Source: a virus. From it: a DNA stretch of 34,719 bases. Every line of letters starts with the position of its first letter. Position 1 is the stretch's first letter. The notes under the pieces were generated by a model. That model was given only the letters and a program-made list of their open reading frames with translations, was not told the DNA's origin and did not search any database. Shown piece by piece: positions 14,314 through 27,704 of this stretch. A program made the position numbers and the translations under genes. The DNA lies in IMG/VR virus record IMGVR_UViG_3300025138_000155, positions 1 to 34,719 of that record; one strand, 5' to 3'.

Positions 14314-14441
14314 CCAGCGACAAGGTCATTCCGCTGCATCCCCCTAAATCCGACATCGATGAGCAATGGCATCAATTAGAAGCGCAGCAAAAACAAATCA
14401 AAGAACAATTGTTAAAAATTTTGGAGACAAAGCCCAAATGA
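14310..14441 (+). CDS. Small 43-residue charged protein
   Basis: ATG 14310 overlaps the holin stop (ATGA) and the stop at 14439-14441 overlaps the amidase ATG. Residues 1-15 are proline-rich (VIPLHPPKSD), followed by an amphipathic helix (DEQWHQLEAQQKQIKEQLLK). The perfect two-sided overlap supports translation. Function unknown; it may regulate lysis or hold the reading of the operon. Confidence 0.65.
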   Translation: MTSDKVIPLHPPKSDIDEQWHQLEAQQKQIKEQLLKILETKPK

Positions 14442-14881
14442 GAAACATCACAGAAATCGTAATTCACTGCACAGCGACACGACCAAACTGGTATCAAGAC
14501 AAGTCGGTTGAGGATGTTGTAAAAGAGTTGACGCGCTGGCACACGGAAAAGCCGCCAAACGGCAGAGGTTGGTCGGATTGCGGTTATCATTACGTCATTC
14601 ACAGAGACGGCACGGTCGGCACTGCGCGACCTGTTCAACGTTCTGGCGCGCACTGTAGAGGGCGCAATAAGCAATCAATAGGCATCACACTATGCGGCGG
14701 TCGTGGCGGTGAAAGCACAGATAAAATTCTGGATAACTTTACGGCAGATCAGGAAACTGCGCTGCGTGATTTAATTGGCGATCTAAAAAAAGATCACCCC
14801 AAAATACAGAATATCTCAGGGCATAATCAGTGGTCGAATAAAGCATGTCCATGCTTCAGCGTGCGCGAGTGGTTGCGCTAG
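14438..14881 (+). CDS. N-acetylmuramoyl-L-alanine amidase (T7 lysozyme-like endolysin)
   Basis: A 147-residue Amidase_2 / PGRP-fold enzyme that cuts the bond between MurNAc and L-Ala. Zinc ligands correspond to His10 (VIHCTAT), His129 (SGHNQWS) and Cys137 (KACPCF); the spacing His129 to Cys137 is eight, as in T7 lysozyme His122-Cys130. Lys135 matches the T7 catalytic Lys128, and Tyr50 or Tyr52 (CGYHYVIHRDG) the T7 Tyr46. The length is close to T7 lysozyme (151). No signal peptide, so it depends on the holins upstream. The ATG 14438 gives the family start; the open frame from 14366 is too long. It ends overlapping by 4 bases the convergent HTH gene. Confidence 0.93.
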   Translation: MRNITEIVIHCTATRPNWYQDKSVEDVVKELTRWHTEKPPNGRGWSDCGYHYVIHRDGTVGTARPVQRSGAHCRGRNKQSIGITLCGGRGGESTDKILDNFTADQETALRDLIGDLKKDHPKIQNISGHNQWSNKACPCFSVREWLR

Positions 14882-15075
14882 TCAGGCCATTGCGGCGGTC
14901 GATACCCGTCTAGCATCCATTGCAAAACTTGCATGGCAATCGGGTTCACAGGCCGCGCATCACCCTCGCTTTCCCAGCGTCGAACTGTGCGCGGGTCTGA
15001 GTTGAGGATGTGTCCCAACTGAGTTGCAGATAGGCCCAGCTTGCGCCGAGCCTGTTTAAATTCAGTGGGGGTCAT
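14878..15075 (-). CDS. XRE-type HTH protein, paralog of the protein at 26803-27009
   Basis: A 65-residue single HTH protein, start MTPTEFKQARRKLGLS. Helix-turn-helix core is LSATQLGHILNSDPRTVRRWE (residues about 14-35). It is 66-70 residues long like the second protein at 26803, with shared start MTP..FKQAR..LGL, RR.E, and end GYR...WP. It is the last gene of the leftward cassette that begins at 15761 and its stop overlaps the amidase stop (CTAG). A small local repressor is likely; the palindrome in the cassette promoter is a candidate site. Confidence 0.8.
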   Translation of the reverse strand: MTPTEFKQARRKLGLSATQLGHILNSDPRTVRRWESEGDARPVNPIAMQVLQWMLDGYRPPQWPD

Positions 15076-15326
15076 TGGCCTGTCTCCCGTAGTGCGCTTT
15101 CGCTTGCTGGTGAAAAACCAGATGCTAACTCATGCCTGATAAAACCAATCACGCCGCGCAGCGTGTCTTGATCCCAAACAACCACTGTGCATGTGGATGA
15201 GTTCCAAGCCATCTTGGGCGGTGCATCAAACGCAACGCGCCAATCAAGCCAACTATCTTGGGAAGCGTCAACCTCGACACCGTGCGGCGCGCATATGGCC
15301 CGTAGCTTTTCGATGGTCTTGTTCAT
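15072..15326 (-). CDS. Unknown 84-residue protein of the leftward cassette
   Basis: Starts ATG at 15326 in an ATGA overlap with the upstream gene and ends overlapping the HTH start, so all three genes are translationally coupled. The N-terminal half (KTIEKLRAICAPHGVEVDASQDS) is a helix then beta, with LDWRVAFDAPPKMAW and TCTVVVWDQDTLRGVIGFIRHEL. No family recognised. It resembles the small unknown genes carried in early cassettes. Confidence 0.65.
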   Translation of the reverse strand: MNKTIEKLRAICAPHGVEVDASQDSWLDWRVAFDAPPKMAWNSSTCTVVVWDQDTLRGVIGFIRHELASGFSPASESALRETGQ

Positions 15327-15568
15327 TGTGTTAACCCCTCAACAATAGCGGCAACCTCGGCGGTGAAGTCAGGGTTTATGTCCCAATCGGCTGGGCCACC
15401 AATATACAGCGGTGCGGTGATTACGTGCGGTACATTGTAGTTGCCAATTTCGCCAGTGTAGAACGTTGTTGGTTTGGTGCTTGTCGCATAACTGTCTTTG
15501 TCAATTCTGCCGACATAATTGTTGCCAAGCGTTACAAGTTTGTTTGTATAAACGGTTAATTTTAGCAT
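15323..15568 (-). CDS. Unknown 81-residue protein of the leftward cassette
   Basis: ATG at 15568 follows a GGAGAGACACA ribosome site. The protein is beta-rich with many Tyr, Thr and Gly (TVYTNKLVTLGNNYVGRIDK, FYTGEIGNYNVPHVITAPLY) and an acidic end. No family recognised; the low helix content is unlike the HTH gene beside it. It is separated from the preceding 41-residue gene by a strong UUCG hairpin and a GGGC/GCCC hairpin. Confidence 0.65.
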   Translation of the reverse strand: MLKLTVYTNKLVTLGNNYVGRIDKDSYATSTKPTTFYTGEIGNYNVPHVITAPLYIGGPADWDINPDFTAEVAAIVEGLTQ

Positions 15569-15586
15569 TTGTGTCTCTCCTTAGAT

Positions 15587-15629
15587 GGGCTTGATTGCCC
15601 GTGTTGATGGGCGGTGGGGCCGAAGCCCC
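15587..15629 (-). promoter_or_regulatory. Leader hairpins between cassette genes
   Basis: On the leftward strand, GGGGC-TTCG-GCCCC (15616-15629), a stable UUCG tetraloop stem, precedes GGGC-AATCAA-GCCC (15587-15600) and then ATCTAAGGAGAGA and the start of the next gene. The GGGC hairpin plus GGAGAGA module is repeated before the genes starting at 15761 (hairpin 15779-15792) and 27386 (hairpin 27406-27420). The T run needed for termination is absent, so protection or translation control is more likely. Confidence 0.6.
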
Positions 15630-15635
15630 TCTTGC

Positions 15636-15761
15636 TTATTTATGGTCACGGATATGTTTTTTTGCTTCTTCGATTGTTTTACATTCGTAAACCCAACCGC
15701 CAACGGCTACGCTGAAAGTCCCATTGTCTTCTTCAAAGATTTGGTGACCATAATATAACAT
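15636..15761 (-). CDS. Unknown 41-residue protein, first gene of the cassette
   Basis: Starts ATG 15761 after a GGAGAGACGAA ribosome site and ends at TAA. The protein (LYYGHQIFEEDNGTFSVAVGG, then VYECKTIEEAKKHIRDHK) looks like a small beta-beta-alpha domain. The 58-residue protein at 27210, first in the other HTH cassette, shares a short GWVYDC/GWVYEC motif, so the two may be distantly related. No function known. Confidence 0.7.
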   Translation of the reverse strand: MLYYGHQIFEEDNGTFSVAVGGWVYECKTIEEAKKHIRDHK

Positions 15762-15801
15762 TTCGTCTCTCCATGTGTGGGCTTCATTGCCCTATGCATC
15801 T

Positions 15802-15830
15802 AATATAGGGCCAATGGCCCGACATTGCAA
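15802..15830 (-). promoter_or_regulatory. Leftward promoter PL1 with palindrome in the spacer
   Basis: On the minus strand TTGCAA (15825-15830), a 17-base spacer, then TATATT (15802-15807). The palindrome GGGCCAATGGCCC (15808-15820) fills most of the spacer, so a protein bound there would block RNA polymerase. Drives the 15761-14878 cassette; the start site should be near 15795. Confidence 0.75.
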
Positions 15831-15870: not shown

Positions 15871-16290
15871 TTAGACATTCATCCCAGCATAAAACGCAGC
15901 CGCCATTAAAGCGGCACTGACTGCGCCATATAGCGCCTTGCGCGGCAGCTTCACCGATATGCTGTCATCAGGTCGTTCTGGCGGCAGAGGCGCAGGCCAC
16001 ATGCTGTCAGGCTGTGTCATGATTTCATCGATCTTTGCGCGCATAATCGGGTCTTGCAGTTTTGGCGCTGGTGATCTGCGCTTGCGCTTGGCTGGCTTGG
16101 CAATCGGCTTTAAAAACAGGTCACCACGCAGCACCATAATTGACAATCTATTTTGAATTGCCTTACGGCTGCGGCCAAGCGTTTCAGCAATATAGTCAAC
16201 CGATCTGGCTTGGCTGTTCAAGTCGATTAGCGTTTTCTCTTCGTCAGGCGTCCAAGTTGTATTTGATTTGGCTGTTTTGACGTTTTTCAT
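15871..16290 (-). CDS. Myb/SANT-like DNA-binding protein with C-terminal TM
   Basis: A 139-residue protein. Residues 11-55 (TTWTPDEEKTLIDLNSQARS to IAETLGRSRKAIQNRLSIM) match the short Myb/SANT or GcrA-like helix pattern used by many alphaproteobacterial phage regulators (three helices with W....E). The middle is rich in basic and proline residues (KPAKRKRRSPAPK). The C-terminus ALYGAVSAALMAAAFYAGM is a hydrophobic helix. A membrane-tied regulator is an odd combination; the TM call is moderate. Its ATG overlaps the upstream gene stop (ATGA). Confidence 0.65.
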   Translation of the reverse strand: MKNVKTAKSNTTWTPDEEKTLIDLNSQARSVDYIAETLGRSRKAIQNRLSIMVLRGDLFLKPIAKPAKRKRRSPAPKLQDPIMRAKIDEIMTQPDSMWPAPLPPERPDDSISVKLPRKALYGAVSAALMAAAFYAGMNV

Positions 16291-16499
16291 TTATTTTTCT
16301 CCAATTTTAATTTGCCAAGCGAGTCAGATCGCAGATACCCGCGCATCATTATATTTTGACACATTTTCCACGCGGCGTTCTTTGATCTGCCTGTCATGTC
16401 AGCAACCGCTTGATAGGTTGGGCATTTACCATGCGTTGCGTGATATGCTGCAATCACTGACAAAACGACCGATTGCTTGCGTGTGAGCTTAGTGGACAT
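16287..16499 (-). CDS. Winged-helix DNA-binding protein (LexA-type N-terminal domain)
   Basis: A 70-residue protein. The pattern LTRKQSVVLSVIAAYHATHGKCPTYQAVADMTG is the LexA-type winged helix (L...Q...l..i..y....g..Pt...ia), followed by KNAAWKMCQNIMMRGYLRS, the wing. No peptidase domain, so it cannot self-cleave. ATG 16499 fits the domain; an alternative frame from 16544 adds 15 residues. It overlaps the upstream gene by 11 bases. Candidate lysogeny regulator. Confidence 0.7.
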   Translation of the reverse strand: MSTKLTRKQSVVLSVIAAYHATHGKCPTYQAVADMTGRSKNAAWKMCQNIMMRGYLRSDSLGKLKLEKNK

Positions 16500-16770
16500 G
16501 GCGAGGCAACGGGTTGCATTCGACTGACTCTTTGTTGGGATCATTTACCACCAAAACAAATTCAAATTTGTCAGTCACGATACGATCATATCCATCTTCT
16601 TTAAAATATTTTGCAACCTGGTCGCTAACAGCGTCCTTTAACTTTGTCGCCAAAGTTTTTTGATTTTGGCTTGATTTCGGATCTTCGATAATTGCCTGCC
16701 AATCTGTCCATTGATCGCCAAAGCTGTCCATTTCAAGGCGGGATTCCTGAAAGATTGTAACGGTTTTCAT
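16489..16770 (-). CDS. Unknown 93-residue protein of the integrase operon
   Basis: Starts ATG 16770 in an ATGA overlap with the upstream gene. Sequence shows strand VTIFQESRLEM, a short W-rich turn (DQWTDWQ), a long charged helix (NQKTLATKLKDAVSDQVAKYFKEDGYD) and a C-terminal strand (RIVTDKFEFVLVVNDP). No family recognised. Intracellular and soluble; the operon context suggests a role in lysogeny or a moron. Confidence 0.6.
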   Translation of the reverse strand: MKTVTIFQESRLEMDSFGDQWTDWQAIIEDPKSSQNQKTLATKLKDAVSDQVAKYFKEDGYDRIVTDKFEFVLVVNDPNKESVECNPLPRHVH

Positions 16771-17021: not shown

Positions 17022-17077
17022 TTGATAACACCATCTTTTTTTTGTTGTTGTAACTGATTACCTCGTCTGTTGTAACT
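16895..17077. repeat. Three TGTTGTAACT repeats beside the integrase (possible attP arm sites)
   Basis: TGTTGTAACT occurs exactly at 16895-16904, 17046-17055 and 17068-17077. Between the first two is a 7-bp inverted repeat, ACAACTT/AAGTTGT at 16946-16966 with a 7-base spacer, a shape like a tyrosine-recombinase core site. The last copy is inside the integrase C-terminus. Integrase-adjacent direct repeats are typical attP arm sites; the core itself cannot be fixed from one sequence. Confidence 0.45.
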
Positions 17078-18158
17078 TTTCACCCCCCGACAGCGCGGCG
17101 CGCCTGTTGTATTTTTTGATGTATCTCTCAATTTCTTTTAAACTTTCGTGGCCAGTCCAAGCGCCGATCTGCACGCTTGTTGCGCCCAACTCAGCCCAGC
17201 TAATTGCGCGCGACTTGCGCAGGCCATGTGCTGTCCTGTTATCCAGCCCAACCTCCCGCGCTTTGCCAGCAAACCAATTGCTGACCGCGTGTTCTGACCG
17301 TGACGCGCCTTTTTTGGTGCAAAGGTATGTCATGTGCTTAACAGGCTGCGCATCAATGCTGGCGTGCAACATCCGCAAATCGTCAGCGTCGGCCGACGCA
17401 AAGTCAGGCAGTCGCCGCGCAAATGGCACGTCAACAGGTCCACCAGTTTTGCCCTGTTTGAAACTTAGCCAGCCGTCACGCGTAACATGACCGCGACCAA
17501 GTTTGACCGCGTCGCCAATCCTTGCGCCTGTCCAGTAAAGCAATTCCATGCACAGCCGCTCAGAGCGCGCCAGAGGGTACATCTTGCGGAAATGGGCTAT
17601 ATCGTCCAGCGACCAAGGCTCATGGCCATCAGAGGCCGCGACAGCGTCTTTATTAATGCCGTCAGTCGGATCAGCTATTCCATATTCTTTGACTATGAAT
17701 TTTGCAAAGCCGCGCCACATTTTTAAATGATTGCGTTGAGCATGACCAGCAAAACGCGACAAATCTTTTTTGACGTGTTTTTGCTCTAGGCCGCACACTT
17801 GCGCAGTGCCGTATAAATCAATCACACCGTCCAGCCGAACACGCCTGATTGATCTTGTGGCAACCGCCAGTAAACCAAATTCATGCGATGATTTATATTT
17901 CACAGCCGCCTCGGCCAAACTGCCGACATAAACTGGCTGCTCAACAACATCTTGCGACAGCCAATTCAAATAATAATTATACGCGGCTGCATAGGCCGTG
18001 ACAAAGCGATCATCGCGCGAATGGCAATCTGGCATTTTCCAGACGTCGGGCAACTTGCCGCGATAACCTTTAGGCCGAAAATAATACCGATCGTGGCCGT
18101 TTTTGTGCGGTCGTGTGTTGGCTCTATTTAGCCACTTGTACCAAATATCTGATCGCAT
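17058..18158 (-). CDS. int: Tyrosine recombinase integrase
   Basis: A 366-residue phage integrase. The N-terminal 170 residues comprise the arm and core-binding region. The catalytic residues are Arg213 (WTGARIGD), Lys237 (KQGKTGG), His311 and Arg314 (AHGLRK), His337 (WTGHESL) and the nucleophile Tyr346 (ERYIKK); Tyr350 lies close by. All expected residues of the family are present, so it should be active. It starts inside the excisionase gene (overlap of 31 bases) and is transcribed leftward. It should carry out site-specific integration; the attachment region is likely downstream, near 16895-17077. Confidence 0.93.
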   Translation of the reverse strand: MRSDIWYKWLNRANTRPHKNGHDRYYFRPKGYRGKLPDVWKMPDCHSRDDRFVTAYAAAYNYYLNWLSQDVVEQPVYVGSLAEAAVKYKSSHEFGLLAVATRSIRRVRLDGVIDLYGTAQVCGLEQKHVKKDLSRFAGHAQRNHLKMWRGFAKFIVKEYGIADPTDGINKDAVAASDGHEPWSLDDIAHFRKMYPLARSERLCMELLYWTGARIGDAVKLGRGHVTRDGWLSFKQGKTGGPVDVPFARRLPDFASADADDLRMLHASIDAQPVKHMTYLCTKKGASRSEHAVSNWFAGKAREVGLDNRTAHGLRKSRAISWAELGATSVQIGAWTGHESLKEIERYIKKYNRRAALSGGEKLQQTR

Positions 18159-26283: not shown

Positions 26284-26802
26284 ATGGTCAAGAAAAAGAA
26301 AAAGAACAAACCTCTGAACGTGAGGCAGGATCGGGCAGATCATGGAACGCCAGAGGCACTCGCGCAGGCTGACGGCATAAAATTTGAAACGGTAGACGGT
26401 GGCCGTGCAGGCGCACAAAAGCGGGTTTATATATCGCGCCAAACGCCATTGGATCGCTACAAAGATCGCGGCATTATCACTGATGTGCAATATCGCGCTG
26501 GATATCACCTGTTCGTATTATGGGATAAAACCAAAGCCGCGCAAAACATAACGTCCAGCTATGATCGTGTCATCGTTGATGGCGGTGGTGGCGGGTCAGG
26601 TTTGAATGAATATGCCTATGCCGACTTCATTGCATTGCAGCGCGAAATGGGTCGAGAGTTGAGCAGCGTGGCGCGCGCCGTCTGTGTTGAGTGTGAGAGT
26701 GCATCTGCATGGGCCAAACGATTTCGCCTGCCGTCACGCATGGGTATTGAAAAGCTGCGGCAGGCGTTGGATGTATTGGCGCGGGTGTTGAGGATTAGCT
26801 AA
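26284..26802 (+). CDS. DUF6456-like late-regulator candidate
   Basis: A 172-residue protein beginning with a poly-Lys stretch (VKKKKKNKPL). TPLDRYKDRGIITDVQYRAGYHLFVLWDKT resembles DUF6456 proteins (plarL...g.l...q..AGerlr.....), and ARAVCVECESASAWAKRFRLPSRMGIEKLRQALDVLARVL the second half. These are often late or lysis-lysogeny regulators near the end of early operons in alphaproteobacterial phages. It is the last rightward early gene; the convergent HTH gene starts one base later. The late-activator role is inferred. Confidence 0.6.
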   Translation: MVKKKKKNKPLNVRQDRADHGTPEALAQADGIKFETVDGGRAGAQKRVYISRQTPLDRYKDRGIITDVQYRAGYHLFVLWDKTKAAQNITSSYDRVIVDGGGGGSGLNEYAYADFIALQREMGRELSSVARAVCVECESASAWAKRFRLPSRMGIEKLRQALDVLARVLRIS

Positions 26803-27009
26803 CTAAAGCGGCCAATCGCTCGACCGATATCCTTCAACATATGCTTGAAGCAATCGAACCATGCGCGGCGCTGGCTTGCGACCAGTGCTGGTATCGCTGT
26901 CCATTTCGACTCTGCGAATAGATTGGCCGTCTGTATCAAGCAATGTGCCAAGCTGGGATTGCGTGAGGCCCAGCGATTGCCGGGCCTGTTTAAATTGAAT
27001 TGGAGTCAT
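26803..27009 (-). CDS. XRE-type HTH protein, paralog of the one at 14878-15075
   Basis: A 68-residue single HTH protein (MTPIQFKQARQSLGLTQSQLGTLLDTDGQSIRRVE), sharing start, HTH pattern and the GYRSSDWPL end with the HTH at 14878-15075. It is last in a leftward cassette of three genes and ends next to the DUF6456-like stop. The cassette promoter has a perfect palindrome in its spacer. Probably a small local repressor; which palindrome each paralog binds is unknown. Confidence 0.8.
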   Translation of the reverse strand: MTPIQFKQARQSLGLTQSQLGTLLDTDGQSIRRVEMDSDTSTGRKPAPRMVRLLQAYVEGYRSSDWPL

Positions 27010-27036: not shown

Positions 27037-27213
27037 TTATAAGGTATTTATTGCGTCTTTTACGTCAGCAAGGCTAGTGTAAAAGTTATCATCAACAAAC
27101 AGGTCTTTGCCGTTTGCGTCAAGCAGCCAATATGACCAACCAAATTGGTCGCGCTGCGTTCCAACTATCAATTTTTTCTCGGCGGCAAGGCGTCTAATGG
27201 TTTTAATGTTCAT
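27037..27213 (-). CDS. Unknown 58-residue protein of the second HTH cassette
   Basis: ATG 27213 overlaps the previous stop (ATGA). IKTIRRLAAEKKLIVGTQRDQFGWSYWLLDANGKDLFVDDNFYT has a helix-beta-beta look with a DANGKDLF turn and then a helix (SLADVKDAINTL). No family recognised. It takes the place that the 84-residue gene has in the first cassette. Confidence 0.65.
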   Translation of the reverse strand: MNIKTIRRLAAEKKLIVGTQRDQFGWSYWLLDANGKDLFVDDNFYTSLADVKDAINTL

Positions 27214-27386
27214 GATTGCGCCCCCTGTTTTTTCCACTCAGTTTGGCAATCGTAAACCCAACCCATTGGGGCAAAGTGTTGATACAAATGTTTCTCAAAC
27301 TCTTTGGTATTGAGGCCCATGCTCAAGCATTCTTTTGCAAATTTTTGTGGCGTAGGCAATTCATAATTATTAATGGTCGTTGTCAT
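27210..27386 (-). CDS. Unknown 58-residue protein, first gene of the second HTH cassette
   Basis: ATG 27386 follows GGAGAGACAG. The protein shows ELPTPQKFAKECLSMGLNTKEFEKHLYQHFAPMGWVYDCQTEW. The GWVYDC motif matches GWVYEC in the 41-residue first gene of the other cassette, so both cassettes begin with related small proteins. Function unknown. Confidence 0.7.
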   Translation of the reverse strand: MTTTINNYELPTPQKFAKECLSMGLNTKEFEKHLYQHFAPMGWVYDCQTEWKKQGAQS

Positions 27387-27429
27387 CTGTCTCTCCTAAG
27401 TTGGCGGGGCGCGTTGCCCCTATGAAATA

Positions 27430-27458
27430 AATATAGGGGCAACTGCCCCTATTGTAAA
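27430..27458 (-). promoter_or_regulatory. Leftward promoter PL2 with palindrome in the spacer
   Basis: On the minus strand TTTACA (27453-27458), 17-base spacer, TATATT (27430-27435). The palindrome ATAGGGGCAACTGCCCCTAT (27433-27452, 9-base arms) covers the spacer and touches the -10 box. The design equals PL1. Confidence 0.78.
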
Positions 27459-27641: not shown

Positions 27642-27672
27642 TTAGTTGCATTTTTATTCTCCCCTAACTCCT

Positions 27673-27704
27673 GCGCTGTTTTAATTAACAGCGCGGGTTT
27701 TTTA
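27673..27704 (+). terminator. Intrinsic terminator 1
   Basis: GCGCTGTT (27673-27680), TTAATT loop, AACAGCGC (27687-27694), GGG then TTTTTT. A perfect 8-bp stem. It ends the transcript from the promoter at 27613 after only about 60 bases. Confidence 0.85.

Follow-up and report, generated by a model that had tools for sequence, protein, structure and literature searches.

The virus DNA analysed here (the window: the IMG/VR record IMGVR_UViG_3300025138_000155, 34,719 nucleotides), from a marine phage whose structural genes resemble those of Roseobacter and Paracoccus phages, carries two cassettes of small genes that, judging from their sequences, are probably Aca-like accessory operons limiting their own expression by autorepression, with a hairpin as a likely RNA-level element. 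Comparison with related viral loci reveals the shared architecture, its recurrence, the replacement of the cargo genes, and an operator spacing and hairpin form matched to the clade of the helix-turn-helix (HTH) protein encoded by the last gene. How the cassettes work, from DNA binding and repression to timing and the function of the cargo, we infer as follows. On entry, the strong promoter would be read by the host RNA polymerase, producing a burst of small cargo proteins, probably anti-defense or host-takeover factors; the small HTH protein, presumably dimeric, would then turn the promoter off by binding the palindrome in its spacer; and the hairpin would either add a second control point, after transcription, or protect the mRNA, as an element matched to the regulator family.

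Both cassettes run leftward, on the minus strand (Table 1). Everything that the first-pass annotation had described in cassette 1, namely a leftward promoter whose spacer contains a palindrome, small genes and a terminal HTH gene, was found; both promoters are of the sigma-70 type, and cassette 2 does repeat the design, with promoter, spacer palindrome, leader hairpin, GGAGAGA site and last-gene HTH all in place. The two are not mirror images of each other, as had been suggested, because they lie on the same strand, and a further hairpin, the third, which stands ahead of gene 2 of cassette 1 together with a GGAGAGA site, had been overlooked. The motif GWVY(E/D)C, pointed out as common to the first proteins, is present in both, but their homology is unsupported: they do not cluster in BLAST searches, and the motif occurs in none of the other relatives fetched; a common first-gene family is not supported.

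Table 1. Elements of the two cassettes, with positions in the window.
Cassette	Element	Positions	Strand	Description
1	Promoter	15802-15830	-	TTGCAA-17-TATATT; same layout in relatives
1	Putative operator palindrome	15808-15820	-	GGGCCATTGGCCC; in the -35/-10 spacer, N4-CANTG-N4 layout
1	Leader hairpin	15779-15792	-	GGGC-AATGAA-GCCC; about 4 nt past the inferred transcript start
1	Shine-Dalgarno site of gene 1	15766-15772	-	GGAGAGA
1	Cargo gene 1	15636-15761	-	41 aa
1	Intergenic UUCG hairpin	15616-15629	-	GGGGC-TTCG-GCCCC
1	Internal hairpin	15587-15600	-	GGGC-AATCAA-GCCC; ahead of gene 2, without its own promoter palindrome
1	Shine-Dalgarno site of gene 2	15574-15580	-	GGAGAGA
1	Cargo gene 2	15323-15568	-	81 aa
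1	Cargo gene 3	15072-15326	-	84 aa
1	HTH protein 1 (clade 1)	14878-15075	-	65 aa; predicted Aca-like repressor, last gene
2	Promoter	27430-27458	-	TTTACA-17-TATATT
2	Putative operator palindrome	27433-27452	-	ATAGGGGCAGTTGCCCCTAT; 14-bp core, even spacing, in the spacer
2	Leader hairpin	27406-27420	-	GGGGC-AACGC-GCCCC
2	Shine-Dalgarno site of gene 1	27390-27396	-	GGAGAGA
2	Cargo gene 1	27210-27386	-	58 aa
2	Cargo gene 2	27037-27213	-	58 aa, from an ATG overlapping the gene 1 stop
2	HTH protein 2 (clade 2)	26803-27009	-	68 aa; predicted Aca-like repressor, last gene

The two HTH proteins, previously called paralogous, are indeed both members of phrog_14076 by profile (E 4.6e-13 and 2.4e-16) and are 43% identical to each other; the PHROG 14076 entry, as shown, reads "transcriptional regulator" and gives no description of an operon, operator or hairpin. 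The AlphaFold model of the HTH protein consists of four helices (pLDDT 94), and its best match among PDB folds by Foldseek is Aca1; SO3848, HigA2 and Aca10 come next, and Aca2 too is listed. The Foldseek E-values are weak (the best, for Aca1, is 0.028), as expected for a 65-residue HTH protein, and XRE antitoxins score nearly as well. A profile search of PDB sequences placed Aca3 first (E 1.6e-5); general XRE similarity could account for the Aca3 match and for the Aca1 fold match alike. The modest values of the fold and profile comparisons reflect the resemblance of XRE domains to one another; the Aca-like fold is a predicted one. The family is rare in hosts: in the class searched, 3 of 385 genomes have it; a scan of genome contigs gave three loci, two of them from Pseudovibrio, and only three distant matches were found in phage records and one in plasmid records. 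The virus loci L047, L048, L089 and several of L284-L335 encode HTH proteins of a third clade (LADEWGMG...RTIRRWE), which goes with a separate type of palindrome; the third-clade loci share the same GGGCAATGAAGCCC hairpin.

Sequence comparison suggests that the HTH protein very probably autoregulates its own cassette through the spacer palindrome. At a loose threshold, promoter-like sites with a palindrome in the spacer are common (38 in the window against a mean of 20.5 and a maximum of 34 in shuffled sequences), so the evidence for the reality of the element is its recurrence in relatives; the arrangement alone, not significant in the window at loose thresholds, was rejected as proof. Among the relatives, the palindrome spacing tracks the HTH clade: clade 1 (RRWE, NPIA) goes with an odd core, N4-CANTG-N4, and clade 2 (RRxEM, APRM) with an even, 14-bp core, GGGGC(A/G)nTGCCCC, the spacing being odd in 18 of 20 clade-1 cases and even in 9 of 11 clade-2 cases (p 1.3e-4, not corrected for kinship). 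The associations of palindrome and hairpin with the HTH clade are partly due to shared ancestry. The clade-1 operator has the 19-bp layout of the Aca1 and Aca10 sites, N3-N4-CANTG-N4-N3. The latter, which have been studied experimentally, are TTA-GGCA-CAATG-TGCC-TAA for Aca1 and ATA-CGCT-CATTG-AGCG-TAT for Aca10 (PMC9410881); the clade-1 site of L079 reads ATA-GGGC-CAATG-GCCC-TAT, and that of L273 is similar. Clade 2 differs from the Aca1 and Aca10 sites by the one extra base pair of its core. According to a survey of Aca operons, one inverted repeat is always inside the core promoter (PMC9410906), and the cassettes likewise have an inverted repeat within the core promoter. It is mainly this feature, together with the operator layout, for which we call them Aca-like. 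In L167, about 550 nt separate the promoter palindrome AGGCACAATGTGCCT from the downstream HTH (at 903), and the core of this palindrome is identical to that of the published Aca1 site (PMC9410881).

With the HTH proteins and alignments of them as queries, more than 100 virus loci were gathered, and the design recurs in about 50 relatives. A search for paired cassettes had been recommended; many relatives show only one cassette in the stretch seen. Among the 49 HTH loci found by protein alone (at least 80 bits, with at least 400 nt upstream), 45 have a hairpin adjacent to a Shine-Dalgarno (SD) site upstream of the HTH gene, which in 44 is of the G type, i.e., with a G-rich arm. The cargo between the leader and the HTH gene comprises 108 distinct proteins in 80 unrelated clusters, with 62 singletons. 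It includes the ArdA anti-restriction protein (Pfam E 2.6e-34), a DNA methyltransferase, GP88 and an HNH protein in relatives; none of 91 cargo proteins matched the Acr-named models of NCBIfam, and the window's own cargo had no convincing match to anything. The cargo may well be mainly anti-defense. UUCG hairpins, GGGGC-TTCG-GCCCC, are common between the cargo genes of relatives, often lying immediately before the hairpin-SD segment that follows.

The cargo has been exchanged exactly between the conserved leader and the HTH gene. In L003, L007 and L009, which represent the orthologous locus of cassette 1, the flanks align at 80-91%, the alignment ends at the leader (about 15779) and restarts at the HTH start (about 15077), and only short hairpin/SD matches are found in between. 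At the same locus in L142, promoter, hairpin and HTH are all of the clade-2 kind, exchanged as a set. This exchange and the clade-specific spacing lend comparative support to self-control through the spacer palindrome, which the first-pass annotation had proposed; the switch function that it attached to this control is considered below. Two cassettes are fused in tandem in L003 (1873-2445), where a clade-2 HTH gene leads, at its 3' end, straight into the right operator half, the -10 element and the leader of a clade-1 cassette; as the gene abuts the right operator half, the left half-site has been lost.

The hairpin is placed 2-14 nt ahead of the first gene's SD, and some internal genes have one at that position too. 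Searching the window for a hairpin followed by an SD gave four matches (three sites, all within the cassettes) against 0.02 expected, and no Rfam family matched the window at gathering thresholds. In the collected loci, 55 of the 123 SD-bearing genes in cassettes, that is, within 1.8 kb upstream of the HTH gene, have the hairpin in front of them, compared with 9 of 325 outside the cassettes (odds ratio 28, p 1e-26); loci from a search with a looser loop pattern were left out of these counts and of the count over 49 loci, since they are partly chance matches. All nine outside hairpins are on the strand of the cassette, further upstream or just downstream, and three of them (in L150, L151 and L154) belong to a neighboring operon whose promoter palindrome is of the same kind. 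This second operon, downstream of the HTH gene (L150:3800, L151:3802 and L154:1822), has a GGGAC-type hairpin, and its palindrome suggests that the HTH protein controls more than its own operon.

The form of the hairpin follows the clade: in clade 1, a GGGC stem carries a six-base loop (AATGAA, AATGAC or AATCAA), while in clade 2 the loop has five bases and the stem is longer, with exceptions such as L017. The stem co-varies with pairing kept (GAGC/GCTC, GGGAC/GTCCC, GAGGC/GCCTC and two G-U changes). In an exact search, the AATGAA loop was found in 73 contigs and the loop-reversed control in 5, an approximately 15-fold difference; of the 65 AATGAA sites followed by at least 800 nt of sequence, 47 lead to an HTH protein of the family, third clade included, against none of the five control sites. 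A loop that is both selected and tied to the HTH family argues for RNA recognition rather than plain stability, and from these sequence patterns it is quite likely that the hairpin acts as RNA. The ATG in the AATGAA loop was also considered as an upstream ORF, a reading rejected because the AATCAA and AACGAC loops have no ATG.

Palindrome arms and hairpin stems vary independently (the palindrome is changed in L217, L220 and L276, the hairpin in L147, L150 and L154); a single recognition code for both, which this variation does not support, was rejected. Given this variation, binding of the hairpin by the HTH protein itself is possible, if somewhat doubtful. Tentatively, the protein could read two codes, one a palindrome in the promoter DNA and the other an RNA hairpin unrelated to it and placed ahead of several cargo genes, silencing both transcription and the existing mRNA gene by gene, while the hairpin-SD segment and the HTH gene would form conserved ends for cargo exchange. 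A serious possibility is that the hairpin is a generic 5' stem-loop for mRNA protection or ribosome loading, unrelated to the HTH protein, and that the palindrome is the sole HTH operator. Its location at the predicted transcript 5' end and before internal genes would fit such a role, as would a stem that does not track operator arm changes and the existence of similar leaders in phage operons without a detectable HTH of the family (L021, L028, L050 and L093). Plain stability, however, needs no such selection of the loop over its reverse, and a generic element would hardly be concentrated in HTH cassettes (in the window it is found only there despite many other genes) or differ in loop length between HTH clades. 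In L021, L050 and L053, a CGGGGC-AATGAC-GCCCCG leader precedes apparent structural genes in an operon without HTH.

It is unlikely that the DNA of the hairpin serves as a second, downstream operator for the HTH dimer. Some acr promoters do have two inverted repeats, the second being IR2 (PMC9410906), the hairpin is located just past the -10 element in the leader, and its half GGGGCA resembles the clade-2 half-site. However, the hairpin also occurs inside operons, with its SD distance kept, ahead of genes that lack a separate promoter (in L007, L059 and L089 and before gene 2 in the window), its loop is asymmetric and conserved, and two loci retain RNA pairing by G-U changes that break the DNA symmetry.

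Among known systems, the acr-aca operons (of Aca1, Aca3 and Aca10) are close to the autorepressed cassettes proposed here, having a strong promoter with a core inverted repeat, small variable genes and a last gene for an HTH protein of 60-80 aa; in the cassettes, too, the HTH gene closes an operon of small genes that all lie on one strand, and Aca1 and Aca10 are among the weak fold matches. The cassettes differ from them in four respects. First, no known anti-CRISPR gene was found in the cargo. Second, the HTH proteins are only remotely similar in sequence to the numbered Aca families. Third, the first gene and some of the internal ones have a conserved hairpin ahead of their SD. Fourth, clade 2 has the longer, 14-bp operator core. 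As the cargo contains no demonstrated or homologous anti-CRISPR gene, and ArdA is an anti-restriction protein, the cassettes are filed as Aca-like and not as acr-aca operons. By analogy, the hairpin can be seen as the unusual part of otherwise Aca-like cassettes, a layer reminiscent of Aca2. The Aca2 protein of ZF40 reportedly represses translation by RNA binding, according to a 2024 study. The structure of an Aca2-RNA complex has been solved (PMC11239489). As in the Aca2 system, a promoter palindrome is combined with a leader stem-loop beside the ribosome site; unlike Aca2, the HTH proteins of the cassettes have 65-68 aa and four helices and are devoid of the long C-terminal dimer domain, the stem-loop and the DNA operator do not share arm sequence, and one and the same operon can have the hairpin ahead of several genes.

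In a limited literature search, no Aca family described for marine or other alphaproteobacterial phages was found. If the Aca-like reading is right, the promoter-hairpin-HTH signature could be used as a search key for anti-defense genes in these phages: one small collection has already yielded 80 cargo clusters, nearly all without known function, and the hairpin-marked cassettes would be a large untapped set of candidate anti-defense genes. It would also allow a direct test of whether Aca-type RNA control, as in Aca2, is general and uses an RNA code distinct from that for DNA.

Autoregulatory logic and an HTH fold near those of HigA2 and other XRE antitoxins are shared with toxin-antitoxin modules (HigA2/MqsA type), in which the HTH protein would be the antitoxin. 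This is a very improbable reading of the cassettes: no toxin partner was found and no known toxin family was matched among the cargo, the neighbors are variable and form unrelated clusters instead of one toxin family, and often three or more genes per cassette are swapped while the HTH stays. The diversity of the cargo led us to reject it.

The least credible proposal, made in the first-pass annotation and rejected here, is that the pair of cassettes with their two paralogous small repressors is the lysis-lysogeny switch of a phage that does encode a tyrosine integrase (17058-18158), since no CI-type C-terminal (oligomerization or peptidase) domain was found in the 65-68 aa HTH proteins, the cargo is variable, many relatives show a single cassette with swapped cargo and no immunity-region layout, and other regulator candidates adjoin the integrase. 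As to the accompanying statement that no CI-like repressor is otherwise visible, the window does encode other candidate regulators, a LexA-like winged-helix HTH (16287-16544; Pfam E 1.6e-4, just under the cut-off) and a D5-like HTH (15871-16290), both beside the integrase. These two are better candidates for lysogeny control than the cassettes.

As noted before, each cassette abuts a convergent gene, cassette 1 that of an amidase (14366-14881) and cassette 2 that of a DUF6456 protein (26284-26802). A single CTAG at 14878-14881 provides the stop codon of both HTH protein 1 and the amidase. Finally, a strong rightward terminator-like site was found past cassette 2 (27670-27697), so that read-through of the rightward operon, which ends at 26802, as far as this site would be antisense to the whole of cassette 2.
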